DNA of 34,980 bases from a virus, in the IMG/VR virus record IMGVR_UViG_3300034524_000192, positions 1-34,980 of that record; one strand, 5' to 3'. The position numbers and the translations under genes are program-made. Positions 1 through 22,260 of the stretch are shown here, one piece after another. The notes beneath the pieces were generated by a model. The model worked only from the letters and a program-made list of their open reading frames with translations, was not told the DNA's origin and made no database searches. Every line of letters begins with the position of its first letter. Position 1 is the stretch's first letter.

Positions 1-144
1 CATCTCATGTCTTATAAGATTTCCAAGCGGCGTAGCTTCAAAAGTCTGCCTTAAAAATGTTCTGGACTGTTCAGGATTAAGCAGTCCAGCAGTAACATCG
101 GCTGTACTTAATGCTGATTTAATAATAGTGCTATTAGTTTTCAT
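1..144 (-). CDS. Major capsid protein, N-terminal part (cut by window edge)
   Basis: The reading frame stays open from an ATG at 144 to the window edge, giving 48 residues that include LNPEQSRTFLRQTFEATPLG. It has a strong AGGAGGATGAGAAAAC leader before the ATG. The position directly after an XkdF-type protease is where the major capsid gene sits in PBSX-like head operons, and the N-terminus resembles clostridial phage major capsid proteins. The gene continues to the left, so length and fold cannot be judged. The protein would be the shell subunit of the procapsid, processed or assembled with the help of the upstream protease/scaffold. The assignment rests mainly on gene order. Confidence 0.7.
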   Translation of the reverse strand, partial: MKTNSTIIKSALSTADVTAGLLNPEQSRTFLRQTFEATPLGNLIRHEM

Positions 145-165
145 GTTTTCTCATCCTCCTTTAAA

Positions 166-1530
166 TTAAAGAATTCCTGTAAGATAGTGGGACTCACTTT
201 TTTTAACCTGACTGGGTTCTCCATTCAGGTTTGTTGCAATGCCTTTGGCTTTCAAAACTGCCGAAAGTTCTTTTCTGACTATCTCGGTAATATCATCTTT
301 GGTCAGTTTCTCTTCCTCTTTCGCAACAGCTTCTTCCTCTTCATCACCGAGTGCCTTTTTGATTTCCGCAGCAATAACCTCTTGAATATCCCCTTTGGTT
401 ATCACTTCATCCTTTGTTTCATCTTTTGCTGTTGATGCTGCAGACTTTTCAATCTTCTTCTCGGTACCTGATTCCATAGCTTTTTTGATTTCTTCCTGAA
501 TCATTGTTCTGATATCTTCAGCCTTCACGATATCATCCTCCTTCTCTCCTTCAGAGTTTTTATTTATTTGTTCGTCTCCTTCATCTTCATCAAACTGAGA
601 GGCGAATTCACTTAATGATTGAACAATCTCATTAAGCTTAGCTTTGTTTGAAGCACTCATCTTCTTGCCGGCCTTTCTGATAGGCTTGTCGGTAAGAAGT
701 GCTTTAACAACGCTTTGCTCTGTCAATACATCCATGATGATTTCTGAGAATTCTTCCAAAGCACTTTTGATTGCAGCTTCATCAGTCTCATATTCCCATC
801 TGTCAGTATTCCAGTTATACTTATAAAGCAAATCTTCCAGAGTATAAAAAGCTGTCCAAAAGCGGGTGCTCTTTATACTTGCATTGTACTTATCTTTCAT
901 GGCTCCTTTTTCGACCACATCAAAGCCAAGGGCTTCAGCAAGTTTCTTGAATAGGCCTTTCTTTTCAGTGTCGGTATTCATTGCATCATCATCTCCTTTC
1001 TCACCGGATTTCTTTTGTATGCTGTTCAAATCCACATTTTCATCACTGTATTTACCGACACCCCCCATAGAGAACCCCGTAATCTCACCCTTTTGAACCT
1101 TATCCCATATCTCTGGATCGGAAATTTCAACTGTTAATAACCAGGTACCTTTCTTGATTTCTTGCCCTTCAATATTTTCATCAGACTTAGTAACCCAATT
1201 TTCAACAACAGTTGCATTAGACAATTCCTCAAAACTATGCTGAATATCAACTTTATCACCGTTTTTTGCAAACCAGTATGCAGCCTTTGTTATTTCTTCC
1301 TCGGTCATAAAGTTCCCATGGGAATCTTCAACCATTGGCTCATACACTATTCCTGTAATATAGTGGTTTTCATTATCCACCTTCAGGATTCGGCCGAAAG
1401 TAGTAAAGTTTACCTCACCTTTTTCCGCCTTGGTAATAAGGAACTGCTTCTTATTAGCTGCCTTATCAACAAGGGATACAAAAGAGATTTTTGCATCTGT
1501 GATTTCATAGGCTTTCTCCACTTTTCCCAA
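166..1530 (-). CDS. XkdF-like prohead serine protease with scaffold-like C-terminus
   Basis: This 454-residue protein has an N-terminal XkdF-type (peptidase S78 family 2) protease domain, roughly residues 1-175. Likely catalytic residues are His98 in VDIQHSF and Ser154 in GFSMGG. The rest is highly acidic and lysine-rich, with three repeated blocks of the type EDIRTMIQEEIKKA, GDIQEVIAAEIKKAL and DDITEIVRKELSAVL. These look like coiled-coil scaffold segments, so protease and scaffold appear to be one protein. A GTG at 1539 lies inside the ribosome binding site AGGAGGTGAGAACG, so the TTG at 1530, with 8-nt spacing, is the better start. The gene lies 21 bp upstream of the capsid start and probably matures the procapsid. 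Confidence 0.85.
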   Translation of the reverse strand: MGKVEKAYEITDAKISFVSLVDKAANKKQFLITKAEKGEVNFTTFGRILKVDNENHYITGIVYEPMVEDSHGNFMTEEEITKAAYWFAKNGDKVDIQHSFEELSNATVVENWVTKSDENIEGQEIKKGTWLLTVEISDPEIWDKVQKGEITGFSMGGVGKYSDENVDLNSIQKKSGEKGDDDAMNTDTEKKGLFKKLAEALGFDVVEKGAMKDKYNASIKSTRFWTAFYTLEDLLYKYNWNTDRWEYETDEAAIKSALEEFSEIIMDVLTEQSVVKALLTDKPIRKAGKKMSASNKAKLNEIVQSLSEFASQFDEDEGDEQINKNSEGEKEDDIVKAEDIRTMIQEEIKKAMESGTEKKIEKSAASTAKDETKDEVITKGDIQEVIAAEIKKALGDEEEEAVAKEEEKLTKDDITEIVRKELSAVLKAKGIATNLNGEPSQVKKSESHYLTGIL

Positions 1531-1595
1531 CGTTCTCACCTCCTTTCATGGGGTAATTGGCAATAAAAAAAGCGTATTTTATTAAACACGCCATT

Positions 1596-1961
1596 TTACC
1601 TCCTTGTAATGCGAATTGCAGATTTTTTATCTAATCTCTCAAGCATTGCTACAGTGTATGGCTTAAACTGAATGATTTCATCCATAGATTTATAGCACCA
1701 CACCGTAACCTCGTTATATTTTCCTGTATCAAGTTCTTTAAACATCCTTAATAACTGAGCATCAGTCACACCAGCAGGAACAATAACCCGATAATTAATC
1801 CTCTTTACCCTTTCGTAGTTTGCTTCGTCTGAATTAACCACAGCAAAGCCTGACGGGCTATGTATGGCTTTTTCTACATCTGCAGGTGTGTTTATATATC
1901 CATGCTTATTAACAATTGATGACGGCTTTCTCCTGAAGGCAGAGGATAAAAATTTTAACAT
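1596..1961 (-). CDS. Small unknown head-region protein with a domain shared with the 32827-33225 gene
   Basis: I do not recognise a family for this 121-residue soluble protein. It starts at an ATG behind AAGGAGGTCTTACT. Its C-terminal half, residues 57-120, aligns by eye with residues 71-131 of the membrane-anchored protein encoded beside the integrase. Shared blocks are RVIV, TDxQLL, KYxEVTxW, YKS, YxVAMxER and ITR, about half identical over the core. It lies between the Mu F-like head protein and the protease, where small head or decoration proteins often occur. The cross-similarity to a lysogeny-region gene argues against a purely structural job. Its function is unknown. Confidence 0.75.
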   Translation of the reverse strand: MLKFLSSAFRRKPSSIVNKHGYINTPADVEKAIHSPSGFAVVNSDEANYERVKRINYRVIVPAGVTDAQLLRMFKELDTGKYNEVTVWCYKSMDEIIQFKPYTVAMLERLDKKSAIRITRR

Positions 1962-1973
1962 AGTAAGACCTCC

Positions 1974-2924
1974 TTATTCTATTCCTGCTTTAGCTCTGTT
2001 TTTGGCATCAAGTTCAGCTTCCCACAAAGCATTATCTTCTTCTATTGCTTGTTGCTGAAGCTTTCTTCTTTCTTCTATTGGTAAACCAAAAATATCGTCG
2101 TTGACAATAGCTCGATGCACACAATGACAATTAACACGCTCTGAAGCAGGCAGAGAAATATCTCGTGGGAACATGGCCTCATAGGTCCCGGTCGGTGCAT
2201 ATATGACAAACGGTTCATTCTTTTTAACGATTGTACCATCCATAGCTTGATGATGTGGCCTAGGTTTTATTTTGTACTCTCCGGTATGTTTCCACTCCTT
2301 CCGGTCTACTGCTGGACTCTGCCTTATAGCTTCCTCTTGGGAGTAAGAATGAGCTGTCAGCATTTCTGTAATAGCAGTAGCTCTTGCCCGTTTACGGCTA
2401 AACCCATAACTGTCCATGAGTTTTTCCATCACCTGCTGAACACTATCTCCATTTTCAAGGCCTTTATTGAGAATTCGCTCAAGTTCTTCATGTGATCCGA
2501 GCTTCATTATTCTGCCAAGCTCTTCGCTCCAGCTTTTTATCCAGTCAGATGTCCTTTCACTGAACATGGAAAAAGCTAAATCTTTATCTATTTGCTTGAT
2601 GTATGAGTCTGTCAAGCTACGAAGTGCTTTTTCAAATATGTCTTTGAAAACCTCAGCCAGTTTCTCATCAGTCAAGTCTCCCTCTAAAAGATTCGGCATA
2701 ATGTTGTTTATTGCAGTTTCAAGGTCAACTCCTTCTATCTCTCCAAGGAAATACTCCAATTCCTGCTCAAGAATTTCCGCTATGGCATCCTCAAGGCTGT
2801 TTATATTTTCGACGGTTTCCGAAGCATTAAGATAACCTTCCTCATTGAGCCTGTCGGTTAAGTCGTCATCAGCCTTGCTTATGTAAGTATCAAGAGCTTT
2901 TATCAATGTCTCAAACTCATTCAT
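1974..2924 (-). CDS. Phage Mu F-like minor head protein
   Basis: The protein has 316 residues. The N-terminal 160 residues are acidic and helical. The C-terminal part matches the Mu gpF / SPP1 gp7 head morphogenesis domain: an arginine-rich helix around 175-190 leading to TEMLTA, then RPHHQAMDG at 222-230 and the ending PASERVNCHCVH at 259-270, where this family carries a Cys-x-Cys. These proteins are minor head components bound near the portal, needed for head assembly or DNA ejection. The start ATG overlaps the portal stop codon by 4 bp (ATGA), so the two are translationally coupled. The order terminase, portal, F protein, protease, capsid is classical. Confidence 0.88.
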   Translation of the reverse strand: MNEFETLIKALDTYISKADDDLTDRLNEEGYLNASETVENINSLEDAIAEILEQELEYFLGEIEGVDLETAINNIMPNLLEGDLTDEKLAEVFKDIFEKALRSLTDSYIKQIDKDLAFSMFSERTSDWIKSWSEELGRIMKLGSHEELERILNKGLENGDSVQQVMEKLMDSYGFSRKRARATAITEMLTAHSYSQEEAIRQSPAVDRKEWKHTGEYKIKPRPHHQAMDGTIVKKNEPFVIYAPTGTYEAMFPRDISLPASERVNCHCVHRAIVNDDIFGLPIEERRKLQQQAIEEDNALWEAELDAKNRAKAGIE

Positions 2925-4480
2925 TCCGACACCTTCTCCTTCTCCCGGCTCATTTTTTGGAGCAGTTTTTTGACTTCCTTCATAATAACAACAATGTCAT
3001 CTTCCTTTGAGTCCATAGCCTTTTTGATAGCCTGGTCTATCTGTTCAGTTATGCTTTGACCGGTACTAGAAGATGAATTTATTTGAGTTTTGGTAACTGC
3101 AAGCGGAATATCTCCCCATTCTTCCTTATACGGCTCTGCAACCCTCCCAAGAGTTTCAAGAGTAATTTCTTTTGCAGTATTTGGTGTCAATCCTCCTGCA
3201 CGTTCAGTTATATTTAGAATTTTGAAGATATCATCAGGATTTGTAATATCCGGAGCTTTGAAATAAACTTCCACATATTTAAACTGATAGCAGTTAAGAA
3301 GCTTGTTGTTGATGGTCCATGCAAGGCTTTTGCGTTCAGGAATAAACACCTGTTTTTCTGTTACTTCCATGGCAGTCTGAGCAGTTGCTCTGTTAAAGTC
3401 TGTGGTATAGCCAGTATACAGATCCGGTAACCGGAATGCTGACTGCACCTTTTTACGGGAATTCTCAAGGTAATCCTGGAAGAGTTCATCTTTTTGCAGA
3501 ATAGAAGCCATATCCTTTACTTCAACAGATGGTGTCTTTTCAGCTTCAAAATCTACCTTGTTTTCATTCTCTTCAACCTCGAGCACAAGAAAAGCATGCT
3601 GCCCAGCTTCACCTTTTATATCGTTCATGTATTCTTTTAGCTTTGTGAAGCTATCATCGGACAGTGCCCCGCCTTTAACAATAATCATCAAAGGTGTATG
3701 TCTTCCTTCAGAAAAATAGTTATTATTAAGATTTTCCGCTTTCCTTGCCCCATCTACACTTAAAACCTGCCCTATCCACCGGACCGTACCATAGTCGCTG
3801 GTACCAATGGCGAATTCAAGTATCTCATTGGCTTGGTATTCAAGCTCCAGTTCATCAACATATTCGCCATTTCTTTTATCCATGATCCGAGGGTCGCCCA
3901 TCTCTTTAAAGTATACAACCTTGCCGTTCTTCTCCTGCTTGTATTTGCAGAATTTCTTCAAGCGTTTTATAGGCATACCTTTATAGAAATATTCAACTTC
4001 AACCGCTGGGTCAAGAGCTGCAGTCTTTCTTATAGATGGAGTATCTTTGATGAACTCTATCTGAGTAACCTCTCCCGCAATATTCCTGATAACTTCAAGA
4101 TATGCTATTCCATAAGTTTCTCTTGCCTCAATAAGATCTTCAAATACTTCTTTGGTATCCATATCCATGTTGAGCAAGTCAATAATGCTAACCGCCTTTT
4201 CATATTCCGTAGCCATCTCTTCAGTTTCTTCAATGTCATCCTTGTATTTTATCCCAATACCAAAGCCTGCAATATTATCTTTATAGGCTCTGATACACTG
4301 AGGCAGGATAGTAGAATGATCTACCATATCTTTTAAACCCTGCAAATCTACCGAAGGTTGAAGCCATATTAGAGAGTTGTTATCGTTAATTGTATTTGAC
4401 TCGGCAGCTTTCTTAACAGGCTTGTCACTAGCTTTTATGATTTTTGCTGATATGGTTGGTTTAGTTTTTTCATTGCTCAA
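2921..4480 (-). CDS. Phage portal protein, PBSX-like family
   Basis: This 519-residue protein follows the large terminase and precedes the F-like head protein, the invariant portal position. The N-terminal third contains the portal-typical NNDNSLIWLQPSVD-like entry and SxILPQCIRAYKDNIAG. The central region runs through GRHTPLMIIVKGGAL to RLPDLYTGYTTDFNRATAQ, a stem/clip signature seen in PBSX-type portals. The C-terminus is a charged tail of about 80 residues. The dodecameric portal forms the DNA channel and docks the terminase. The start is TTG at 4480, overlapping the terminase stop (TTGA), behind AAGGAGATGATAAAGC. The C-terminal extension is longer than in minimal portals and may contact the scaffold. 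Confidence 0.92.
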   Translation of the reverse strand: MSNEKTKPTISAKIIKASDKPVKKAAESNTINDNNSLIWLQPSVDLQGLKDMVDHSTILPQCIRAYKDNIAGFGIGIKYKDDIEETEEMATEYEKAVSIIDLLNMDMDTKEVFEDLIEARETYGIAYLEVIRNIAGEVTQIEFIKDTPSIRKTAALDPAVEVEYFYKGMPIKRLKKFCKYKQEKNGKVVYFKEMGDPRIMDKRNGEYVDELELEYQANEILEFAIGTSDYGTVRWIGQVLSVDGARKAENLNNNYFSEGRHTPLMIIVKGGALSDDSFTKLKEYMNDIKGEAGQHAFLVLEVEENENKVDFEAEKTPSVEVKDMASILQKDELFQDYLENSRKKVQSAFRLPDLYTGYTTDFNRATAQTAMEVTEKQVFIPERKSLAWTINNKLLNCYQFKYVEVYFKAPDITNPDDIFKILNITERAGGLTPNTAKEITLETLGRVAEPYKEEWGDIPLAVTKTQINSSSSTGQSITEQIDQAIKKAMDSKEDDIVVIMKEVKKLLQKMSREKEKVSE

Positions 4481-5925
4481 GCTTTATCATCTCCTTTCTT
4501 TCGGTCTTTTAGAGCCACAGGCAAGCATAATAAAAGAACACAGTCTGCTTCATCAGGACTGGATAATCCACGCTTCTTCATATCTTCCTTGCTTTCCACC
4601 TTGATTTTACTGTTATCTGTCATGGTGTATTTACGGCATGAAAGCTGTCCAACTAAGTCATTGTCGTTGGGCAATATAAGCTCTACCGGCTTTGGATTTC
4701 CTTCTTCATCCTTATTGCTCAGTAAGCTTTTAACCACATTCATCATGTAGGTAGTTGAATCATAGAAATACTTGTGCTTTATTCTAACGCCGAATTTAAC
4801 CGGTATTACTTCCATCCACCAGTATTGAGAAGGGTTACTCCTTTTTATTTGTCTGAGTCTGTCAACTACTCCACCGCCAACACCACCATCATCAATTTTA
4901 ACGGGTATTTTATATTTGAACCCGTATTTATCGATAAGCATTTGGCCGAGCAATGCAATATCTGCTGCCGTTCTCATGGTGTCCTGTCCATTGAGCTTTT
5001 TATAAAATTCCACCTTCTCGTTTACCTTGAAGCCTATAACTGTTTTATCGTCTCCAAATCTGGCAACATCGCAACCTATGTCAATAGACTCTACAGGCTT
5101 TTCCTCCGGATCACTCATTATGCTGGCTTCGATGAGTGATAAAGGAATAAATACATCATCCTCCTGTAGAGGAAACTTGCCAAAAACTCTGACTCTTACT
5201 ACATTGCTGTCCTTCCCGTATTTGCGTATAAGAGCTTCAATATTCTCTTTATTGGTTCGTGGGCTATCTGCAGCTGAAACAGTATGGCAGCGATATATTG
5301 ATCGGTCTGAGGTATGGCTGTCATAAAAAACACCAGATGTTTTCGTCGGGTTTCCACACATTAGAAGCTTATTATTTTTACCGGAAAGGGTACCGAGTAT
5401 TGCTTCTAAAATTGGATCTGCTACACCGGATGCTTCATCAACAATAAAAAGCATATTGTCTTCATGAAATCCCTGCATGTTTTCGGGTTTGGTTGCTGTC
5501 CTTGCTACTGCAAACCACCTTTTTTCATACCCAATCATATAGATATATGTCTTGGTCCATTTGAGTATATTTGATAACAATGGACTCTTCGACTGCCATT
5601 TTGCAACTTCTGACCATAATACATCATGCAGCTGCTGTCTTGTTGGCGCAGTTGCTACCACCCTTGGGAATGGAAAACAACACAAAAACCACAATAAAAT
5701 AACCGCTTCTACACCGGTCTTGCCAACACCTTGACCGGATTTCACGGTTACTCTGTTATGCTCCACAATATCTTTAAATACTTCCCTTTGCCAGTCATCA
5801 GGAATAAAACTTAAAACCTCTTTTGCAAATAATTCAATGTTTTTACGGTATTCAGGAATCCGCTTCCTGAAAAACTCTCGGCGTGATGTTGGATTATTCT
5901 TCATCTTCTTCATTGCTATCACCAT
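4477..5925 (-). CDS. Phage terminase large subunit
   Basis: The protein has 482 residues. The N-terminal packaging ATPase has a Walker A motif SGQGVGKT at about 63-70, an adenine/arginine region with APTRQQ, and Walker B MLFIVDEASG near 158-167. The C-terminal RNase H-like nuclease begins with IDIGCDVARFGDDKTVIGF, followed by KIDDGGVGGGVVDRL and a final PDEADCVLL, which supply the metal-binding acidic residues. It cuts concatemers and drives DNA into the prohead through the portal. The start is uncertain: ATG at 5925 has a poor ribosome binding site, while ATG at 5913 follows GGTGATAGC. Either overlaps the small terminase gene, so coupling is likely. Confidence 0.95.
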   Translation of the reverse strand: MVIAMKKMKNNPTSRREFFRKRIPEYRKNIELFAKEVLSFIPDDWQREVFKDIVEHNRVTVKSGQGVGKTGVEAVILLWFLCCFPFPRVVATAPTRQQLHDVLWSEVAKWQSKSPLLSNILKWTKTYIYMIGYEKRWFAVARTATKPENMQGFHEDNMLFIVDEASGVADPILEAILGTLSGKNNKLLMCGNPTKTSGVFYDSHTSDRSIYRCHTVSAADSPRTNKENIEALIRKYGKDSNVVRVRVFGKFPLQEDDVFIPLSLIEASIMSDPEEKPVESIDIGCDVARFGDDKTVIGFKVNEKVEFYKKLNGQDTMRTAADIALLGQMLIDKYGFKYKIPVKIDDGGVGGGVVDRLRQIKRSNPSQYWWMEVIPVKFGVRIKHKYFYDSTTYMMNVVKSLLSNKDEEGNPKPVELILPNDNDLVGQLSCRKYTMTDNSKIKVESKEDMKKRGLSSPDEADCVLLLCLPVALKDRKKGDDKA

Positions 5926-6640
5926 CCATTACGCCATGTATCCAATCATTAACCAGGTCATTACCTTTTTGTTCGTCCTCTATCCTCTGTCTTTCAATCC
6001 TCAACTTGTTTAAAGCTTCAATGCACCTGGTCTTCTTGGCTTGTACTCGTGTCAACTCTGCTTCAAGTTTCTGTATAACCTCAAAAATGGAAATGGTACG
6101 GGTGGTAGTTTCAGTCTGCGTCTGGTAATCATCCTGAATGATGTTTCCATCAATCTCAAGCTTTCTCTGAATAACACTCTCTAAAGTCAGTCCGCCTTTC
6201 TTCTCCTTATACTCCGCTATAGTTTTTAGCAATCTGCGCTCTCTGACCGTTAGCAAAGCTATCTGCTCCTGAAGCAATCTCTCCTCTTCATAATTCATGG
6301 CCTGTATCATTTGCATTTCTTCGTCATTGAGTGTGTCCCAATAGATTCTTTCATACAGGCCATGCTTATAATTATTTTTATTTCCTTTAGGAGCTCCATG
6401 ACCTACACCGTTCTTATTTCCGGGTTGTCCTCCCCGTTTTCTTTTGGTAACGTTACTTTTCTTTTTCTCTTCCTCTTTTGGTAACGCTACCTTTTCCCAC
6501 CCGTCCTGACTTTTCCATTTCCGTACCTGTGATTCCGACACTCCGAGTTCTGAGGCTATGTCCTTGAGCAAGCGTTTTTTCCCCGAGGCAAGCCACAGCT
6601 CACGAGCTTTATCTCTGTTAGGACTTCTTGCTCTTGGCAC
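5894..6640 (-). CDS. Phage terminase small subunit, PBSX-like
   Basis: The protein has 248 residues and starts with GTG behind GAGGTGGTGAT. An N-terminal helix-turn-helix (ASELGVSESQVRKWKSQDGW) would recognise the packaging site. It is followed by a basic, glycine/asparagine-rich linker (GGQPGNKNGVGHGAPKGN), a hallmark of the XtmA/YqaS-type small subunits. The second half is a long charged coiled coil suited to ring oligomerisation. It ends in an acidic tail that overlaps the large subunit start. The protein selects phage DNA and stimulates the large subunit ATPase. It is the first head-packaging gene after the ParB/PP-loop cassette, separated from it by 48 bp. Confidence 0.9.
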   Translation of the reverse strand: MPRARSPNRDKARELWLASGKKRLLKDIASELGVSESQVRKWKSQDGWEKVALPKEEEKKKSNVTKRKRGGQPGNKNGVGHGAPKGNKNNYKHGLYERIYWDTLNDEEMQMIQAMNYEEERLLQEQIALLTVRERRLLKTIAEYKEKKGGLTLESVIQRKLEIDGNIIQDDYQTQTETTTRTISIFEVIQKLEAELTRVQAKKTRCIEALNKLRIERQRIEDEQKGNDLVNDWIHGVMDGDSNEEDEE

Positions 6641-6688: not shown

Positions 6689-7213
6689 TTACATCTTTGT
6701 GATGAACTCTGCGCTACTATAACAATTTACATTTTTTGCCATCATCTTTAAAAAGTCCTCTTTGGAGAAGTTTGATAGTCTGAATATCTCCTCCGGCTTC
6801 ATACCGAGCTGTTTCCCAACTTCCTGAATAGACTTGCCTGATGCCAAAAGGCGTTGCACTATTGCTTTCATAGGCTCCAATAAGTGAGTACCTCTTGCCC
6901 TATTATGGGTTACGGTACCATATATATTACCGCTTTCATCCTCATGCTCAACAATAACAATCGGTACTTTGCCTCCAAGAGCAGAAAAAAGAGGTTCCTC
7001 CCCTGCTACGGTCCACCGGTGAAATCCATCAATTATTGTCATATCAGGCCTTACCACTATAGGAAGTGTCCATCCATTTGCAAGTATAGACTGGGTAAGC
7101 AGCTTCAAATTTTCCTTAGATACCTTATTGGGGTTGTAATCATTAGGCTTTATCTTGTTCCGGTCAACCCACTGCAAGGTTTTAAGCGGTGAAAATAACT
7201 TTTCGTTAATCAA
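6689..7213 (-). CDS. ParB/sulfiredoxin-fold protein (cassette ParB 1)
   Basis: The protein has 174 residues. It opens with a ParB N-terminal-like domain: residues near 20-60 have IKPNDYNPNKV and a helix, then PIVVRPDMTIIDGFHRWTVA, where DGFHR replaces the GERR box of ParB. A short helical C-terminal part (SIQEVGKQLGMKPEEIFRL) looks like the ParB helix-turn-helix. Proteins of this fold can be CTPases, nucleases or nucleotide kinases. Pairing with the adjacent PP-loop enzyme resembles IbrB/IbrA, an E. coli prophage-associated pair that controls eib genes. The start is TTG at 7213, overlapping the upstream stop by 8 bp behind GGAGGAATGACTG. It is the last gene of the cassette. Confidence 0.8.
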   Translation of the reverse strand: MINEKLFSPLKTLQWVDRNKIKPNDYNPNKVSKENLKLLTQSILANGWTLPIVVRPDMTIIDGFHRWTVAGEEPLFSALGGKVPIVIVEHEDESGNIYGTVTHNRARGTHLLEPMKAIVQRLLASGKSIQEVGKQLGMKPEEIFRLSNFSKEDFLKMMAKNVNCYSSAEFITKM

Positions 7214-8360
7214 CAGTCATTCCTCCCTTCTCTGCTTTCTTTGCTTCGGTAATGTATCTACCGAAAATACGTTGATAAAGTGCTCTGAATGTGCGCAATT
7301 TAGGGTCACCTGATATTAATCCTTCGTATATCTCCCTACAGTCATTTTGATTAACTATAGTGTGAACCTGCAGGAAGAAGTTTCGGTACCTGGTAGCAAC
7401 ATATAGTTTATGTTTGGTATCAAAATACTTTTCCATGTTGCCAAACAGCTTTAAAAGCTCTTCTTTATAATCCTTTGGCTTCTCAGTGTTCTCAAGCTGT
7501 TTTCTTTTCTTTGTTCTCCGGCCAAACATTTCACTATCCCAATATAAAGCTGCCAAGTATGCATTTGGTTCCCTGCGTATTATCCGTTCCATCAGGTCCG
7601 GGTAATACTCATTCATTTTTACCAGGCTTTTTGCGGTATCTACCGAGAAAAACTGTGATACTCTTAACTGCCCTTTGGGTATTCCTGACTGCCATAGGTA
7701 AAGATATATGTCCGGTATTTCAACTCTTTGCTCTTTGAGGTAAAGCCATACATCATTATTGGTCCAATCATAAATCGGAAATATCTGCTTTTTATTTGTT
7801 ATATTTCTCCCTGACTTTGTCATGGCCGCAATGTTCTGAAGCCTCTGTATAGATTCCGCTGTCCTGATACCGGTTATTGTAATGCCATCAGAGCATATTC
7901 TTGGTAAAAAGTCCTGATACGCATCTTTTCTTGGGAATAGTAGCGGGTGGCTTCTAATGGCAAAAGAAGGTGGCTGCCTTACCCATACATCCTGCTTTTC
8001 ACTATCCCAGCATATAAAAGTTTCATCATTGGACAGCTCATTAAAGCAGTTGAAATGTTTTACCTCCAGGCAGAACCATTCAAACTTGGCTCCCACAAGC
8101 ATAAACTTCTTTCTCCAGTTCATTACAGTTTTTTCTATACATGGGAATATTGCTTCCTCATCTATATACTGCACTGTCAGTTGGCTAGGGTCTATCTGTC
8201 CCTGTTGGATCAGGTTAAGCACCAGTTGTCCCATGCACAGGCTGTCTTTCCCTCCGGAGAATGACATATAAACAGGCAGCCCATTTCCGAATACATTTTT
8301 AATCCGGATTTCGGCTGCCTTTACTACGTTAATGCTGGCTTCACATCTTTTTATAGCCAA
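7206..8360 (-). CDS. IbrA-like PP-loop (PAPS-reductase-fold) enzyme, DUF3440-type
   Basis: The protein has 384 residues. An ATP-pyrophosphatase loop SGGKDS at 35-40 is followed by TGIRTAESIQR and FPIYDWTNNDVWLYL, the arrangement of phosphoadenosine phosphosulfate reductase-fold enzymes. The long helical C-terminus after about residue 250 matches the IbrA/DUF3440 type rather than assimilatory CysH. The CysH catalytic ECGxH/CGLH-type ending is absent, so sulfate reduction is unlikely. Adenylation of a substrate, as in DndC or tRNA-thiolating enzymes, is more plausible. The start is TTG at 8360, overlapping the upstream ParB-like gene by 10 bp. The exact substrate is unknown. Confidence 0.85.
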   Translation of the reverse strand: MAIKRCEASINVVKAAEIRIKNVFGNGLPVYMSFSGGKDSLCMGQLVLNLIQQGQIDPSQLTVQYIDEEAIFPCIEKTVMNWRKKFMLVGAKFEWFCLEVKHFNCFNELSNDETFICWDSEKQDVWVRQPPSFAIRSHPLLFPRKDAYQDFLPRICSDGITITGIRTAESIQRLQNIAAMTKSGRNITNKKQIFPIYDWTNNDVWLYLKEQRVEIPDIYLYLWQSGIPKGQLRVSQFFSVDTAKSLVKMNEYYPDLMERIIRREPNAYLAALYWDSEMFGRRTKKRKQLENTEKPKDYKEELLKLFGNMEKYFDTKHKLYVATRYRNFFLQVHTIVNQNDCREIYEGLISGDPKLRTFRALYQRIFGRYITEAKKAEKGGMTVD

Positions 8361-8956
8361 ATCTGCTCACCACACTTTGGACAGATAACATACCTTTTTA
8401 TATCTGCCGTTTCTACCTCATCCTCCTGTATATCTGATATAGAATTATTGTCCGTGTTGCCGGCATTTTCAATAAGAGCTTCTTTTTTAGCTGAATTACT
8501 CCTTATGCTTTCAATCTCTTTTTCATCAAGGGTACCGTATTGAGAAAGCTTCTCTGTTACTTCCTCTGCCTCCGCTACCATTGATTTTAAGATTTCCTCA
8601 TCAAAGCCGGGAATATCCAAATCGTTTCCGAGCTCTTCTAAAAAAGCATTTAGTGTATCAAGGTTTTCAATCCCCAAGCTGAATATTTTATTATCCGCAA
8701 TCATAAGCTTTTTCTTCTGATTCTCTGTCAATCCTTCCATCCGGTAAACATCAACCTGGCTTATGCCTGCTTTTTTTAATGCCATAACCAGGCCATTTCC
8801 CGCCAGTATCGTATTGTTCTCATCAATAACTACCGGCCGGATTTGCCCAAACATTTTAATGCTTCTTACAAATTCCTCAATCTGCTTTTCTGTATGAATG
8901 CGTATATTCCGCTCAGGGGTACGAAGGTCCTCAATGTTCATCTTTGTTATTTTCAT
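8351..8956 (-). CDS. ParB/sulfiredoxin-fold protein with C-terminal CxxC tail (cassette ParB 2)
   Basis: The protein has 201 residues. Residues 1-95 form a ParB-like domain: LRTPERNIRIHTEKQIEEFV, then IRPVVIDENNTILAGNGLVMALKKAG, the motif used by phage and IbrB-like ParB proteins, then LTENQKKKLMIADNK. The middle is acidic and probably disordered. The last residues, YVICPKCGEQIWL, are half a zinc ribbon, so the protein may dimerise around a metal or complete a site with a partner. It is distinct from the second ParB protein of the cassette, which has no Cys tail. The ATG overlaps the preceding stop by 4 bp. Confidence 0.85.
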   Translation of the reverse strand: MKITKMNIEDLRTPERNIRIHTEKQIEEFVRSIKMFGQIRPVVIDENNTILAGNGLVMALKKAGISQVDVYRMEGLTENQKKKLMIADNKIFSLGIENLDTLNAFLEELGNDLDIPGFDEEILKSMVAEAEEVTEKLSQYGTLDEKEIESIRSNSAKKEALIENAGNTDNNSISDIQEDEVETADIKRYVICPKCGEQIWL

Positions 8957-9741
8957 TTGCCCATCCCCTCCTTAAATCTTCTGGCACTCTCAATTTTTTC
9001 AGCAGCTTTATCCACAATACTTGGATCGATTGTGTATATCTCTTCCCATCCATGCATTACATCTTTGGTCCATTGTCTTGCAGGCCAGGGATGAGTGCCG
9101 CATTTATAACCGTTAGGCCAATTGTATATAGGCGGAACAGGCAATTTGTGATAATGGATATATGCAAGTATGCACTCATGCTTCCAGTTTGCTAAAGGAC
9201 TGTACCTGGTTACCCCTTTCCCATCAATGTAAATATTACCGCCTCTGCCCACATAATTTCCGTCAGCTCTGCGCCTTCCGAGGATGAGTATATCAAGCCC
9301 ATGCTCTTTGTAATACTTCCTTTGCGCTGCATGCTGCACGATTGAAAACCACCTTGCGGCCTTTGAGCTGTCCTGAGGGAATAACATATCCTGATGCTTG
9401 GCTAACCAGTCCAGATCTTGTCCTGTGTTGATAATTTCAAGCTTATCCGGTTTGTTCTTTTCTATCCAATCTAAAAAAGCAGGATATTCAAGATTGCATA
9501 CCCCAAGCATGCAATCCTTAATTCCTGCCATCTCACATATATGACTGAGGACTAAGCTGTCCTTTCCAGCACTCCATGCATAAGCTGCTTTTTTGCCGCC
9601 AACGGTTTTCTTTATTTCGTCAATAGTAATGGCCGTCAGGAGTTCCAGTTCTTCCTTTGTCACATATTCTTCAATATGTTCCATGGCCCGGATCCAGTCA
9701 TCATTACTTATATTTTGTTTTTTGCCAAGAACCGTTTTCAT
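8953..9741 (-). CDS. Second PP-loop (PAPS-reductase-fold) enzyme
   Basis: The protein has 262 residues. The PP-loop is SAGKDS at 57-62, preceded by a helical N-terminal domain. Other family features are LILGRRRADGN, where the substrate-binding arginines usually lie, and YSPLANWKHECILAYIHYH, equivalent to the W-x-x-x-D-V/I helix of PAPS reductases. It is only remotely like the DUF3440-type enzyme of the same operon, so the two are not a recent duplication. A CGTHPW segment near residue 215 offers a single candidate catalytic cysteine. It probably adenylates or transfers a sulfur-type group on an unknown substrate. The ATG overlaps the symporter stop (ATGA). Confidence 0.82.
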   Translation of the reverse strand: MKTVLGKKQNISNDDWIRAMEHIEEYVTKEELELLTAITIDEIKKTVGGKKAAYAWSAGKDSLVLSHICEMAGIKDCMLGVCNLEYPAFLDWIEKNKPDKLEIINTGQDLDWLAKHQDMLFPQDSSKAARWFSIVQHAAQRKYYKEHGLDILILGRRRADGNYVGRGGNIYIDGKGVTRYSPLANWKHECILAYIHYHKLPVPPIYNWPNGYKCGTHPWPARQWTKDVMHGWEEIYTIDPSIVDKAAEKIESARRFKEGMGK

Positions 9742-11117
9742 GCTTTGTGCACCTCCCTTTGGGTCATCAGGAAGGCAATTATTCCCGCTGTCAGCACCGT
9801 TGTTAAACTCCCAATGGTTTTATATAGTGACAGGTTATAAATAGTGCCGTAGGCAAACACAGGAAGCCCCAGAAGCAATGCAGTTATTACTCCTGTATAA
9901 ACTCCTTTTGCTGAAAGCTTAATATTCTTCAATGTCATTACAGTCGGCAACAGTGTGGATGCTCTTACAGTTCCGTATATCAGAAATAGATGAATAATGC
10001 TTAATCCCGGAATATTTGCTATGCCTATCCCAAAGACAAGCAGTAATATCATAGCACCTTTTGAAATTTTTAAGCTCTCATCCTTAACAACATCTGTTGT
10101 AAGGGAAGCGGCGGCACAAAGATTGCTGTCTACAGTAGAAATCAACCCGGATATAACCATGAACAGGAACGGTAACATAACCCACTTAGGGAAAAGTTGT
10201 GTAATCAATTCAAAATTAACTACACCTTTATCAGCTGCAACAAATCCTGAGCCGGCTGCAATAAATCCGAGTATTCCCATAGAAAGCGGAACAATTGCAA
10301 ACAGTAAAGCTCCTATAAAAAATGCTTTCCCGATTTTGCTTTCTTTAATCGAAAAAGCCCTTTGCCAAAAGCATTGATCTCCAAATGGTCCAGCTATCAA
10401 GCCTATTGCAGTAGGCAAGCCAAAACCAAAGAAGACCTCTAGGCCTTTGGCATTGAATAATCCTGTATACTGTCCCGATACTCCGGACAATCCTTTTACC
10501 AGATAAGTTATTCCATCATCCATATTGATTGCCCAGGGCACAAATATCAGACATGCTGCCAATATAAGAACCATCTGAAGTGCATCCGTTATTACCGAAG
10601 CCTTTATACCGGAAAACTGTGAATATGAATATGCTATCACAGCCAGCATGATAGTAATTATGCTAAAAGGCAGATTTGTAATAGCACTTAGTATTTTACC
10701 GCCTGCAAGTAACTGCACTCCTGTAGATAGTATTGTTAATGTCGCAAGCTGAAACAAGTAGACATGCTTTACTTTTGTGGAGTTGTATCTCTCCTCCATA
10801 AATCCGGATAAGGTAATCCCTCTTGGCATCACCTTCCGAATTCTCTTTGCGAACGGGATAAATATTAATAAACAAGCTATATTAGGCATTAAAAACCAAA
10901 ATAATCCCGGTATCCCGTTCACATATGCTTTCTCTGCCGACACAAATAATGCCGGCGCCCATATCCAGGTTGCTGCTATGCTCATTGCAGAGCTTACAGT
11001 TCCCATGTTCCTGTTGCCGACATAAAACCCTTCAATGCTGTCCTCTCTTTTTGTCAAAATTACTGTTGCGCTCATCATCAATAGAAAATAGGTAAGTAGT
11101 ACAATAATCCCATACAT
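9738..11117 (-). CDS. Sodium:solute symporter family (SSS) transporter
   Basis: This 459-residue integral membrane protein has about 12-13 hydrophobic segments. SSS-family markers are SQFSGIKASVITDALQ at 165-180, GDQCFWQRAFS at 246-256 and ISGLISTVDSNLCAAASLT at 322-340, which corresponds to the LiStaDS sodium-site helix. These carriers move sugars, nucleosides, amino acids, vitamins or anions with Na+. The sequence does not tell me which. A TTG at 11126 sits directly against the ribosome binding site, so ATG at 11117, 10 nt from GGAGG, is preferred. It overlaps the next PP-loop gene and is clearly part of the operon. A transporter in a late phage operon is exceptional. The alternative is lysogenic-conversion cargo. 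Confidence 0.88.
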   Translation of the reverse strand: MYGIIVLLTYFLLMMSATVILTKREDSIEGFYVGNRNMGTVSSAMSIAATWIWAPALFVSAEKAYVNGIPGLFWFLMPNIACLLIFIPFAKRIRKVMPRGITLSGFMEERYNSTKVKHVYLFQLATLTILSTGVQLLAGGKILSAITNLPFSIITIMLAVIAYSYSQFSGIKASVITDALQMVLILAACLIFVPWAINMDDGITYLVKGLSGVSGQYTGLFNAKGLEVFFGFGLPTAIGLIAGPFGDQCFWQRAFSIKESKIGKAFFIGALLFAIVPLSMGILGFIAAGSGFVAADKGVVNFELITQLFPKWVMLPFLFMVISGLISTVDSNLCAAASLTTDVVKDESLKISKGAMILLLVFGIGIANIPGLSIIHLFLIYGTVRASTLLPTVMTLKNIKLSAKGVYTGVITALLLGLPVFAYGTIYNLSLYKTIGSLTTVLTAGIIAFLMTQREVHKA

Positions 11118-11122
11118 TTTTC

Positions 11123-11293
11123 TCAATCCTCCTTTTTCTTTGGGTTTTCTCCCCGATTATCCCCGGAAACTCTGCTAATTGGCGACTTAGCTTTGTTTTC
11201 GGAGCGGTAAAAACATTGAGGAAAGGAGCAGACCACAATGTTTCCACCGGGCGTTGTTTTCCAAACGCACTTTTTGCATTTTCCCTCCTTCAT
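11123..11293 (-). CDS. 56-residue CxxC small protein at the head of the symporter operon
   Basis: This short gene starts at ATG 11293 behind TTGGAGATGATTCT. The first 27 residues hold CKKC and, 12 residues later, CSFPQC, a spacing typical of a small zinc ribbon. The rest is a polar, basic tail ending PKKKED. The stop TGA ends 6 bp before the preferred symporter start, and the end of this frame contains the AGGAGG that serves the symporter. The two are therefore likely translated together. No family is recognised. It may be a metal-binding accessory peptide of the cassette. Confidence 0.7.
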   Translation of the reverse strand: MKEGKCKKCVWKTTPGGNIVVCSFPQCFYRSENKAKSPISRVSGDNRGENPKKKED

Positions 11294-11312
11294 AGAATCA
11301 TCTCCAATAAAA

Positions 11313-11342
11313 AAACCGCCACTCTTCCTTGAATGACGGTTT
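11313..11342 (-). terminator. Strong intrinsic terminator or leader attenuator
   Basis: In the - strand RNA a 12-bp stem, AAACCGUCAUUC with GAGUGGCGGUUU, closes a 6-nt loop AAGGAA and is followed by UUUUAUU. Three stem positions are U-G wobbles, which would be A-C mismatches in the + strand RNA, so the hairpin is specific to - strand transcripts. It lies downstream of a candidate promoter and just upstream of the small CxxC gene. It could therefore attenuate that operon as well as end early transcripts. Confidence 0.85.
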
Positions 11343-11376
11343 AAGGCGTTTTGCGATTATAGAATTTTACACCTAC

Positions 11377-11406
11377 ATCGTAGCATATGATAAACTGCCC
11401 AGTCAA
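11377..11406 (-). promoter_or_regulatory. Candidate promoter for the cassette/packaging operon
   Basis: TTGACT at 11401-11406 is followed after 18 bp by TACGAT at 11377-11382, read on the - strand, with a predicted start near 11370. It lies immediately after the late-type regulator gene and about 27 nt before the terminator hairpin. The -35 element is good and the -10 is moderate. It is inferred to fire late gene transcription, possibly under the neighbouring regulator. Confidence 0.5.
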
Positions 11407-11429
11407 TGCCCTCTTTTTGCCTTCGGTTT

Positions 11430-11987
11430 TCAATCCTTCTTTAATCCATCAATGCCAAATATAAGTGCCGATAACCTCTCACATGCAGCATCTACATCTT
11501 TGTATACTGTTCGTTCATCTATCCCTTCCATAGTTGCAATTTCTCTTACTGTCATAGGTTGCTCCGATATGTAGAGATTATCTATAACCCGATAACGCCT
11601 GCTGTCCTCTGGTTTAGTAGATTTCATGCAATAAGCCTCATACAATGCAAGCATGTCTATTACATGGGTCATGATAATTTTAGTCCTGGCCACACTCTTT
11701 TTGATGCTTTCAACGAACAATTCGCTGTCATTTGAGTATTCCCACATCATATCTAAGATATCTATAGCATTCTCATCCAACTGAGAAACTTCAAATACTG
11801 CATTTTCAGTGTGCTCTTTAAACATACGGAAATTCCTCAGTAATAGCTTCGTGTTTCTAAGTCTTCGGTCATGCCGGGACTTATGGGCCTTTTTCTTTTC
11901 CTTTTCCAATGCCTCAAGTGCGGCCTTGGCTCCTGCTTCAGCTGCCAACTTAATGATTTCAGCTTGTGCCAATGTACTTTTCCCCAT
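11430..11987 (-). CDS. Late-gene regulator, RinA/ArpU or sigma-70 region 4-like
   Basis: The protein has 185 residues. It begins with a basic helical region (KEKKKAHKSRHDRRLRNTK), has a central helical segment, and ends in a region-4-like helix-turn-helix: RYRVIDNLYISEQPMTVREI, then EGIDERTVYKDVDAACERLS. This layout is typical of phage regulators placed immediately before the terminase operon that switch on late genes. The ATG at 11987 has a good AAGGAGG with 10-nt spacing; an extension to 12029 lacks one. The candidate late promoter and hairpin leader lie just downstream, consistent with control of the following operon. I cannot tell RinA-type from ArpU-type by eye. Confidence 0.75.
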   Translation of the reverse strand: MGKSTLAQAEIIKLAAEAGAKAALEALEKEKKKAHKSRHDRRLRNTKLLLRNFRMFKEHTENAVFEVSQLDENAIDILDMMWEYSNDSELFVESIKKSVARTKIIMTHVIDMLALYEAYCMKSTKPEDSRRYRVIDNLYISEQPMTVREIATMEGIDERTVYKDVDAACERLSALIFGIDGLKKD

Positions 11988-12012
11988 AGCTTGCGCCCCT
12001 CCTTGTATTGTA

Positions 12013-12041
12013 TTGATAATAAATACCATTTCTTATATAAT
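12013..12041 (+). promoter_or_regulatory. Strong sigma-A-like promoter on the + strand
   Basis: TTGATA at 12013-12018 and TATAAT at 12036-12041 are separated by exactly 17 bp, a near-consensus promoter pointing away from the surrounding - strand genes. The predicted start is near 12048, and a terminator follows within about 40 nt. No + strand reading frame follows. Confidence 0.5.
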
Positions 12042-17196: not shown

Positions 17197-18210
17197 CTAA
17201 ACGTCCAGTTCAGGGGGAGTAACCCCCAAATTATCACAAAGCTTTTCGTAACAACCTCTGCAGACATATGCTAATTGCTTTGCACCGGTTCCCCGTTTAG
17301 CTCTGGCCAGCAATGCAATCATTTCCTTCTTCAGCTTTTCCTCTTTACATAAAGCACATTGACCGTACATCTTTTTATACCAGGCACTCTCTGTTTGCTG
17401 TTCCACACTTACTTGCCGTTTAAGGATCTCCGGAAACTCCTGCAATGCTTTTAAATCGATACCTTTGCCCATAATATCTAGCAGATTATCTTTCAAAAAT
17501 ACCGGGACAATTTTCTCTTTGCACTTCTTAATAAGTCTAAGAATCCAATCCCTCTCCGGAATAACTTTATCCCGCCGATTTCCTGTTTCAGCTCCGATAA
17601 TTACCCAATCCACTTTTTCAACTAATTCATCAGCTGCTTCATCGGACCATGGTGCAAGAATAGGTTCAATGCTTATAAATACATTCACTTTTTCATTCCA
17701 GAAAAATTCCATATCCGGAGTAGGTACAGTTGTGCCATACCAAAAATTATCAGCTGTAGGGAGAATATCTCTTTTAAGCAGTTCTTCATAACGCTTTGGA
17801 TTTTTTGTAAGAAACATATAATTGTGCTGCGGGTATTTCTTACAGGCTTCAAATATCATAGAGATCCATTCATCAGGTATCCAATCTCCAAAAACATCAG
17901 CCATCGACCCAACAAATATATTTCTGCCATTTTTCACTTTCCCGGGCCAATCCATGCGGTACATGTGCAGCGTAGGTTCAAATCCATAAGGATAATTCAA
18001 TGCCCTGTTCTCCCGGGTAATAAATGGCTTATCTAACACATATAATCCTCTTTCATTATCATACTGGCAGTCATTAGATGCCTTATTTAACCTGATGTCT
18101 CCTGAGAATCTTGCGGACTGCTTCCTTGCATAGCAGTATGGGCAATCGTGTTTGCACCCGGTTATGGGATTCCATGAGTAGTCAGTCCAGTCTATTTTGC
18201 TCTTATTCAT
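17197..18210 (-). CDS. Phage Gp37/Gp68 family, radical-SAM-like protein
   Basis: The protein has 337 residues. The N-terminus WTDYSWNPITGCKHDCPYCY contains C-x3-C-x2-C, the radical SAM cluster motif. It is followed by FVGSMADVFGDWIPDEW and IIGAETGNRRDKVI, which define the Gp37/Gp68 (DUF5131) family of phages. The last 65 residues add four cysteines (CALC and, about 30 residues on, CRGC), an extra zinc ribbon. The radical chemistry substrate is unknown. ATG 18210 behind GGGGGGAAGTAATA is preferred to the longer frame from 18261. It overlaps the preceding gene by 8 bp. Confidence 0.85.
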   Translation of the reverse strand: MNKSKIDWTDYSWNPITGCKHDCPYCYARKQSARFSGDIRLNKASNDCQYDNERGLYVLDKPFITRENRALNYPYGFEPTLHMYRMDWPGKVKNGRNIFVGSMADVFGDWIPDEWISMIFEACKKYPQHNYMFLTKNPKRYEELLKRDILPTADNFWYGTTVPTPDMEFFWNEKVNVFISIEPILAPWSDEAADELVEKVDWVIIGAETGNRRDKVIPERDWILRLIKKCKEKIVPVFLKDNLLDIMGKGIDLKALQEFPEILKRQVSVEQQTESAWYKKMYGQCALCKEEKLKKEMIALLARAKRGTGAKQLAYVCRGCYEKLCDNLGVTPPELDV

Positions 18211-18430
18211 TATTACTTCCCCCCTTCTCCTTGGGCATATAAAAAATCGTTCTATTGTCACGAATATGGTTCTCTAATTTATCTATCACTTCCAAAGCTC
18301 TTTCTGGTGTATCATAGTCTCCCAGCTTAGTATCATCTGCAGCTCCTGAAACTCCCATTATTGAGGCTTCAACAATATAAACTTCTTTGTAATCACCAAA
18401 TGAACGTCTATCCTGGCTTCTTATCCACAT
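18203..18430 (-). CDS. Small conserved hypothetical phage protein
   Basis: This 75-residue protein starts MWIRSQDRRSFGDYKEVYIV, then has GDYDTPERALEVIDKLENHI and a short tail. The MWIRSQ opening recurs in clostridial phage proteins of unknown function. The start ATG follows GGGGGTTATATT. It sits between the PcfJ-like gene and the Gp37/Gp68 gene. Nothing further can be said. Confidence 0.65.
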   Translation of the reverse strand: MWIRSQDRRSFGDYKEVYIVEASIMGVSGAADDTKLGDYDTPERALEVIDKLENHIRDNRTIFYMPKEKGGSNNE

Positions 18431-21270: not shown

Positions 21271-22260
21271 TCATTTGGCTATATCAAAGAGTGACAACTG
21301 GTCAAACTCTTCCTTTACCCGCCCTTTCTTCTTGCCTTTAATCTGTCTTGACTGGCCAGAAATTTCACTGATACCTTTCACAGGTACAGCGCTTTCAATA
21401 ACAATTTGAGTAGGTTCAGCAACAATTTCAGGCTCTTCAATAGCGTTTTCTGCAGTTTCGGTAACATTTTTCTCATACCCGAGTACTCTGCGGAGCTTAT
21501 CATACATGGGATCCATGCTTCTTTTGATAACTTCATCTTCAGCATTTCTGGCATCTGTCATCCCGCATTGCTGCCTCCATATCCAGCCATCAAGCATGTA
21601 TACCGGGGTGTACCACCTGGACCATTCTTCTACAGTTAAGGTGTTACCATGGATAACCACTGCCGGTATTCCATACAATGAAAGCTGCAGATATGCCATA
21701 TGAACACATTTCAAATCTATATCCTGAGCAGTAACCACCATTTGTGAGCAATAATTCATCCCATTTGCTTTCATAGCTTTTGCAAAGCCCAATACCATAG
21801 CACCACTTCCGACACATGGCTCACATACTGTTATAAAACCTTTTTCTTTAACCATTTGTGCTTTATCGGAAACTGTAATCATTCCCATAGCTTCACAAAT
21901 ATGCACTGGTGTAAAAAATTGCCCTTTCCACTTGTTGTGGAGTTCTAACTCGTGGAATACCTGACCGAGAATATCAGTAGGTCCTCCATTAAGAACCAAG
22001 CTGTCTTCCATGGCGTTTGTCAGATATGCCAACATTTCAGGAAATCTTTCCTGCTCACTCTTGCTGTAAGTATTTATTATTTCAAAGTACCTTTTCTCCC
22101 GTTTTTCCCTATGGATCCAGTCAACCGTATTGCTTAATGCTATAGCCGACATTTCAACGAAGTCTGAAAACACCTGCCAAGTTGAATGCCTGTATCCCAA
22201 GTAACCTATAGCTTTTACAATCTCTTTCCGGTAATCTGAAATAGCTTGATTTTTACTCAT
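21271..22260 (-). CDS. N-6 DNA methylase-like protein without an NPPY motif, clamp-binding tail
   Basis: The protein has 329 residues. The HsdM-like features are GQFFTP at 113-118, the SAM-binding loop CEPCVGSGAM at 146-155, AQDID and HGNTL at 204-208. The catalytic N/D-P-P-Y/F motif normally found soon after is absent: after HGNTL the sequence runs on to WSRWYTPVYMLDGW. The protein may therefore bind SAM or DNA without methylating adenine. Residues 321-325 are QLSLF, a clamp-binding peptide. ATG 22260 with GGAGTGGTGGCT is preferred; it overlaps the DnaC stop. It precedes the PcfK/PcfJ pair, as in other Firmicute elements. Confidence 0.8.
   Translation of the reverse strand: MSKNQAISDYRKEIVKAIGYLGYRHSTWQVFSDFVEMSAIALSNTVDWIHREKREKRYFEIINTYSKSEQERFPEMLAYLTNAMEDSLVLNGGPTDILGQVFHELELHNKWKGQFFTPVHICEAMGMITVSDKAQMVKEKGFITVCEPCVGSGAMVLGFAKAMKANGMNYCSQMVVTAQDIDLKCVHMAYLQLSLYGIPAVVIHGNTLTVEEWSRWYTPVYMLDGWIWRQQCGMTDARNAEDEVIKRSMDPMYDKLRRVLGYEKNVTETAENAIEEPEIVAEPTQIVIESAVPVKGISEISGQSRQIKGKKKGRVKEEFDQLSLFDIAK

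Follow-up and report, generated by a model that had tools for sequence, protein, structure and literature searches.

Why should a phage keep a membrane importer in one overlapping run of genes with two PP-loop enzymes and two ParB-fold proteins, directly ahead of its terminase genes? In this study, we addressed this question for a sequence of 34,980 bases, IMG/VR virus record IMGVR_UViG_3300034524_000192 (the window, by which we mean the whole of this stretch). An earlier note, made from the sequence alone, had described here a cassette of six genes and had proposed that it modifies a nucleic acid or small molecule with substrate uptake of its own. Our comparative genomics demonstrates that an importer is linked to the enzymes in nearly every related cassette, and that what is conserved there is an importer function and not a single gene. 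As a whole, the earlier observation was confirmed and its interpretation was partly supported. The genes of the cassette follow one another on the minus strand between a helix-turn-helix (HTH) gene and the terminase genes:

9738-11117, minus strand: SSF-family (SLC5-like) sodium:solute symporter, the predicted importer (Pfam SSF, phrog_20720)
8953-9741, minus strand: PP2, PP-loop enzyme with a phosphoadenosine phosphosulfate (PAPS)-reductase domain and the motif SAGKDS (phrog_424, Pfam PAPS_reduct)
8351-8956, minus strand: ParB1, ParB-fold protein with the motif ILAGNG and the end CPKCGEQIWL (phrog_620)
7206-8360, minus strand: PP1, PP-loop enzyme with the motif SGGKDS, PP-loop domain at about residues 7-253 (phrog_2302, Pfam PAPS_reduct, structure model)
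6689-7213, minus strand: ParB2, ParB-fold protein with the motif DGFHR (phrog_2159, Pfam ParB_N)

According to the coordinates of the open reading frames (ORFs), SSF and PP2 overlap by 4 bases, PP2 and ParB1 by 4, ParB1 and PP1 by 10 and PP1 and ParB2 by 8, and these five genes form a tightly coupled unit. The SSF ORF is open from a TTG at 11126; a more probable start is an ATG (11117) that lies 5 bases past the stop of a small ORF for a CxxC peptide and would have an AAGGAGG site in common with it. All six ORFs of the earlier note are present and tightly packed, and the four motifs stand in the proteins to which they had been assigned. The CxxC peptide, counted there as the sixth member, has to be given up: a tblastn search of 134 loci found its ORF in no contigs but that of the window and the near-identical ones of L003 and L075, and it therefore lies outside the conserved unit. 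Nor did the supposed duplication of both enzyme types hold, since the two PP-loop and the two ParB genes belong to four distinct families, phrog_2302, phrog_424, phrog_620 and phrog_2159.

Starting from the symporter, we kept the best 80 of 86 relatives in viral contigs and found 50 relatives in genome contigs, which are clostridial wherever a group is named. Among the 119 loci with at least 3.5 kb of downstream sequence (redundant contigs kept), ParB1, PP1 and ParB2 are present in 113, and 95 of these 113 have PP2 as well. The gene neighbourhood described earlier recurs among relatives, for the most part as a five-gene unit, to which the CxxC ORF does not belong. The remaining six loci (L066, L081, L116, L118, L130 and L132) are copies damaged by truncation, disruption or deletion. 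In three of them, the prophages L130, L132 and L081, the symporter ends early, near residue 335, and further cassette genes were not found downstream. The association of the genes is far beyond chance, and the lengths of their junctions are conserved, foremost the 10-base overlap of ParB1 and PP1. Among 291 genomes from the class, three have the symporter subfamily at E 1e-60; of two newly found loci of the subfamily, one carries SSF-PP2-ParB1 and the other SSF-ParB1 within the sequence retrieved.

A second survey was anchored on ParB2 and blind to transporters, and it combined the best 80 of at least 588, the best 80 of 551, the best 80 of at least 582 and all 57 matches of four scans. The resulting 261 loci were reduced to 177 at 95% ParB2 identity, of which 139 have PP1 and ParB1 (38 lack one or the other in the available sequence) and 113 of these also have an upstream flank of 1.5 kb or more. 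Proteins that contained internal stops, or whose length was off by more than 25 amino acids, had been left out of an earlier protein set. An importer accompanies 112 of these 113 non-redundant cassettes, and it is still seen in 14 of the 26 that were set aside for their short upstream flank. L318, with ParB2 beside pieces of SSF, is a broken copy. The upstream slot holds an SSF symporter in 62, a membrane protein that we call TarTM in 39 and an ATP-binding cassette (ABC)-type permease with a binding protein in 10; it is empty in two, in one of which (L204) an SSF gene lies directly downstream, bringing the SSF total to 63. The earlier note had named a symporter never linked to the ParB and PP-loop genes of relatives as one result that would count against it; the opposite was found, and its proposal of substrate uptake is strongly supported, with three kinds of importer in place of one.

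A quickly built PP1 tree with 114 rows requires at least 12 changes of importer type, or 11 without the single row labelled as having none, as against a mean of 42.2 changes when labels were shuffled, where a number as low as that observed was reached in 0 of 200 shuffles. In this tree 41 of 111 inner branches are open, several rows are long and L189 and L204 may be joined falsely; the starred branches alone nevertheless force five changes for TarTM, three for ABC and three for SSF, and one starred clade with a support of 100 contains TarTM in L166 and L191 and ABC importers in L176, L177 and L192. An ABC permease (L177:2498-3319) and a TarTM protein (L191:2918-3979) share the start MxTxLKNxxGxRPDAG and differ afterwards, possibly the trace of a gene swap. 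Whichever kind is present, the importer is closely joined to the set, its stop lying within 25 bases of the next start in 92 of 111 cases. Permuted orders in which the set is intact also occur, namely PP2-SSF-ParB1-PP1-ParB2 in L310, SSF...PP2-ParB1-ParB2-PP1 in cassettes of the L292 type and ParB1-PP1-ParB2-SSF in L204. The linkage in 112 of 113 cassettes, the repeated swaps and the tight junctions led us to reject the transporter as a chance neighbour. Judged from these sequence comparisons, the importer has been replaced repeatedly while the enzymes were kept, and by this genetic argument the uptake of a particular compound would be part of what the PP-loop and ParB proteins do. This suggests that the viruses that carry the cassette import a compound in order to use it.

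The window symporter reaches 74.3 bits against the Pfam SSF cut-off of 22.8, and its best PDB profile match is the urea symporter DUR3 (E 1.8e-30). Its residues S330 and T331, which we take to be the Ser/Thr pair of the Na2 site in transmembrane helix 8 of SSF (SLC5) symporters, are invariant among ten diverse rows. TarTM, a membrane protein of the 333-amino-acid type, was first met as gp35 of Faecalibacterium phage FP_Taranis, a protein that has no SSF match at E up to 0.1 and no Pfam family above cut-off. The model of the L179 protein (pLDDT 85.4) has a LeuT fold and comes closest to the SLC5 choline transporter CHT1 (9bfj; Z 25.7, root-mean-square deviation (rmsd) 3.5, 307 residues aligned) and DUR3 (9vim; Z 23.5, rmsd 3.2, 297 aligned), with LeuT and other families at Z 22 and downward. 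Because of this fold likeness and because the TarTM profile matches that of SSF (hhalign, 94.7% over 205 columns), TarTM is by its modelled structure a distant, reduced LeuT-fold relative of SSF, a minimal member. The parts of the ABC importers are unrelated to either. All five of the binding proteins scanned match the Pfam NMT1 family, and their best NCBIfam match, the aliphatic-sulfonate protein SsuA (TIGR01728), stays at 96-118 bits under its cut-off of 163.5; the one permease scanned matches SaoP and TauC, both under cut-off. No ATPase gene is present among the listed upstream ORFs of the ABC cassettes L220 and L224, so that an ATPase of the host would have to be borrowed.

In six host genomes, SSF proteins other than the cassette's own are at most 26% identical, and only two of them, both weak matches, reach E 1e-10; the two best cellular matches of an ABC-type binding protein among 199 genomes are 27-28% identical. 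The PDB relatives of SSF and TarTM handle urea or choline, and those of the ABC binding protein bind sulfonates, nitrate, taurine or pyrimidine precursors, a range too broad to allow a choice of substrate. The available text of PMC13188914 gives no substrate for SaoX/SaoP, and a literature search on the DUR3 pocket gave no result.

As for the enzymes, PP1 and PP2 pass the Pfam cut-off for PAPS_reduct and ParB2 that for ParB_N; ParB1 stays under its Pfam cut-off (18.7 against 26.3 bits) and matches phrog_620 at 1.4e-50. Across 140 rows (139 loci and the window), the PP-loop, DEE and GxRxxES motifs of PP1 and the DGFHRW box of ParB2 are nearly invariant, the last CxxC cysteines of ParB1 are conserved in 138 and 139 rows and C97 of PP1 in 133. 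The PP1 model (pLDDT 87.2) has its best fold match in the adenosine phosphosulfate (APS) reductase 4bwv (Z 14.9, rmsd 3.5, 182 residues aligned), followed by CysD (1zun, Z 14.2), FAD synthase (8ron, 14.1), LarE (10.7), NcsA (10.4) and TilS (9.7), matches that hardly cover the helical C-terminal part after about residue 253. Residues 1-146 of ParB1 match phrog_498, annotated as a DNA methyltransferase (6.6e-32), and the protein also matches the MTase_II model of PADLOC.

The surroundings of the cassette bear on when and on what it may act. In the window, these are:

11430-12029, minus strand: HTH regulator, upstream neighbour and not a member (Pfam; phrog_1558, function unknown)
11313-11406, minus strand: leader with a promoter-like TTGACT-18-TACGAT at 11406-11377 and a terminator-like stem at 11342-11313 (consensus matches only)
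11123-11293, minus strand: 56-amino-acid four-cysteine (CxxC) ORF, probably outside the unit (ORF list, tblastn)
5894-6640, minus strand: terminase small subunit, directly downstream neighbour (Pfam, PHROGs)
4477-5925, minus strand: terminase large subunit, neighbour (phrog_2, 2.8e-46)

The place beside the terminase genes, which the earlier note had seen, recurs among relatives. Of the 109 cassettes for which 2.5 kb of sequence or more was available, 88 have a terminase large subunit no further than 4.5 kb downstream, at a median of about 920 bases, as judged with several groups of terminase queries. A scan for the HTH gene gave nine loci, two of which were inspected; both are without the cassette and hold, between the related HTH gene and a terminase recognised by reading the sequence, a DAM-like-phage1 and GNAT-phage-like fusion (PF22555, PF22559) with a ParB protein of phrog_7405 (L402:7561-9875 and L406:7440-9712). 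The L402 ParB also matches phrog_620, the family of ParB1, at 7.2e-20. These two cases suggest that the slot may be used for DNA-modifying genes.

In the leader, Rfam finds nothing in the window at gathering scores. A hairpin that hides the SSF ribosome site is predicted in 51 of 57 regulator-linked SSF leaders; the controls are not clean, with such hairpins in 77 of 98 SSF leaders overall and in those of ParB1 (67 of 86), PP2 (42 of 63) and HTH (25 of 46), as against fewer in those of the terminase small subunit (21 of 58), ParB2 (22 of 81) and the terminase large subunit (6 of 33). Control of the importer by an attenuator or a riboswitch-like element, in window positions 11117-11430 and in the SSF leaders of relatives, is possible. 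Elsewhere the window has an integrase-like ORF at 33862-34980 (named from reading the sequence), an M78 peptidase and an HTH repressor-like gene, by virtue of which the phage looks temperate; its host is likely clostridial. The same window encodes a DUF5131/radical-SAM-like protein (17197-18261) and an N6-methylase-like protein (21271-22269).

We propose that these genes form an import-coupled cassette for nucleic-acid modification that would act before packaging, a reading that we hold tentatively and to which, as a complete chain, we give slightly less than an even chance. Transport, ATP-dependent activation by PP1 and PP2 and a DNA-directed use of nucleoside triphosphates by the ParB proteins are steps that we infer from families, folds and invariant motifs. 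First, the importer supplied by the phage (a Na+ symporter here, in other cassettes a minimal carrier of the LeuT fold or an ABC permease with its binding protein) would bring in a single small polar compound or a small group of related compounds. PP1, often together with PP2, might then adenylate this compound or its acceptor with ATP, as the fold and the nearly invariant PP-loops suggest; PP-loop enzymes of the PAPS-reductase, CysD and FAD-synthase type, which bind and use adenylylated substrates, provide a precedent. ParB1 and ParB2, bound to nucleotide and DNA, would guide the transfer or drive it, and the CPxCG end of ParB1 could serve here as a metal knuckle or a thiol relay. For ParB-superfamily proteins in DNA modification, DndB and DpdB are precedents. 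The acceptor would be phage DNA made late, just ahead of packaging, and the altered DNA of the virion might resist host nucleases. DNA is the favoured acceptor because of the terminase linkage, the other tenants of the slot and the likeness of ParB1 to methyltransferase-linked ParB domains. The imported compound perhaps marks the viruses' own DNA chemically. That the cassette represents a new type of modification, in which PP-loop enzymes activate an imported compound, and not a nucleotide precursor made by the host, and ParB proteins then attach it to phage DNA, is a narrower and more doubtful claim, which we consider possible; the importer would then be interchangeable because only its substrate matters.

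Several observations weigh against this proposal. Phage vB_RanS_PJN03 carries two ParB genes and PP1 ahead of its terminase, and the whole 44.5-kb record has no Pfam match to SSF or NMT1, models that are positive in control genomes (TarTM was sought only in the annotated neighbourhood). In the L319 fragment three core genes are present and an importer was not found, and in L321 ParB1 and ParB2 are accompanied by neither PP1 nor an importer. Of the 113 non-redundant cassettes, 69 have PP2 and 44 do not, and the PP1 tree shows 18 changes between its presence and absence. With the query set used, a terminase large subunit was not found in 21 of the 109 cassettes, seven of them of the ABC type, and neither a sulfur donor nor a known base-modifying gene is among the recurrent neighbours inspected. 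Relatives of IbrA and IbrB, finally, are known regulators.

In a different explanation, PP1 and ParB2 act in the manner of IbrA/IbrB as transcriptional co-activators of phage or host genes and an imported effector is sensed by the ParB and PP-loop proteins. It has in its favour that some phage records give the names IbrA and IbrB to distant relatives, that the cassette adjoins the junction of regulator and terminase and that PP1 with ParB2 is the core common to cassettes and distant pairs; however, the nearly invariant PP-loops favour catalysis, an importer and two enzymes make a heavy sensor, and DUF3440, which is typical of IbrA, is missing from the Pfam matches of both PP-loop enzymes at E up to 0.1. 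We regard this explanation as unlikely. A similarly low probability attaches to lysogenic conversion, whereby a nutrient would be imported and adenylated or reduced for the benefit of the host bacterium, with no nucleic-acid target. The importer families, the PAPS-reductase-like fold and the temperate appearance of the window phage would all suit it, and the available part of PMC11318856, whose main text does not contain the word 'symporter', assigns phrog_424 and phrog_2302 genes that co-occur in a C. clostridioforme prophage to host metabolism. Yet two ParB-fold proteins are always present in the counted sets, the position beside the terminase suggests late expression, at a time when host growth would be moot, and no further metabolic gene is among the recurrent neighbours.

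Modification of tRNA or another RNA, with PP-loop enzymes that activate bases like TilS or NcsA and an importer that supplies the added group, seems to us improbable to a further degree: these tRNA-modifying enzymes are indeed among the fold matches of PP1, but higher scores (Z 14.9-14.1) go to APS/PAPS reductases, CysD and FAD synthase, and the ParB folds and the terminase linkage point to DNA. Superinfection exclusion or defence, in which the membrane protein and the ParB/PP-loop proteins would block rival phages, is just as improbable, for although prophages often carry defence genes and PADLOC matches PP1 distantly to DndC and BrxP, three mutually replacing kinds of importer fit uptake better than a dedicated exclusion protein and no nuclease or other effector was seen among the recurrent neighbours inspected.

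Were the product of the proposed modification pathway indeed a DNA mark, its base or backbone chemistry would be new, and it would interest students of anti-restriction as well as those in search of tools. The role of IbrA/IbrB-like phage genes becomes testable with these cassettes, one of which is on record in an isolated phage, FP_Taranis, and another in a prophage of Agathobaculum desmolans ATCC 43058 (L090), and the ABC-type binding proteins, such as those at L177:3316-4284 and L209:2417-3487, can be screened for their ligand. We know of no other phage-encoded importer that is so tightly tied to DNA-associated enzymes.

Among known systems, IbrA/IbrB resembles the cassette in its adjacent PAPS-reductase-domain and ParB genes, which for PP1 and ParB2 overlap by 8 bases. 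Of the likeness to IbrA/IbrB that had been noted earlier, a distant relationship to these proteins and to IbrAB-like phage pairs stands, and anything closer does not. Unlike the cassette, none of the 16 non-redundant distant pairs with enough flank has ParB1 or an importer; this number includes L241 and L246, which have only remnants of PP1, and the clean count is 14. L336 (positions 1-3800), left out of this count with only 829 bases upstream, is also a distant pair of PP-loop and ParB genes, but here a TarTM importer, two additional ParB genes and a remnant of PP2 are present as well; it is possibly a deeper branch of the system. Three inspected IbrA/IbrB-like pairs lie directly beside helicase genes, at L137:3758-6808 (SNF2/Helicase_C by Pfam) and, on reading the sequence, at L330:2540-6501 and L344:3340-6480.

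The phosphorothioation systems Dnd, Ssp and BREX type 4 share with the cassette a PP-loop enzyme of the PAPS-reductase kind, and in Dnd, according to the accessible text of PMC10853773 and PMC12839542, DndB of the ParB superfamily accompanies DNA modification. An assignment to DndC is not supported, as PP1 reaches 25.7 bits against a cut-off of 290.4 and PP2 has no DndC match. DndA, DndD and DndE were not found in Pfam scans of 30 ORFs of the window, which may be a partial genome and whose hosts could supply them, and BrxP of BREX type 4 gives no more than a weak PADLOC match to PP1. In contrast to all three systems, the cassette carries an importer. Dpd likewise has a ParB-like protein, the ATPase DpdB of a base-insertion system (PMC12839542, as far as accessible); where Dpd has a transglycosylase, of which there is none among the scanned ORFs of the window by Pfam, the cassette has PP-loop enzymes and an importer. 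The fusion and ParB genes of L402 and L406 occupy the same slot, with a ParB in L402 that resembles phrog_620, but their enzyme is methylase- and acetyltransferase-like and neither a PP-loop enzyme nor an importer is present.

In the literature within our reach, which excluded bioRxiv and most subscription papers, we found no description of the cassette as a system. One counterpart is gp35-gp38 of FP_Taranis, which is the same cassette, consisting of a membrane transporter, a ParB, a PAPS reductase and a ParB, followed by DUF6275 and the terminase; it differs in its minimal LeuT-fold importer and its lack of PP2, and it has been annotated gene by gene and not as a system. The pieces come from known families, whereas the import-coupled unit that they form fits none of the systems tested and is, in our judgement, new as a system.

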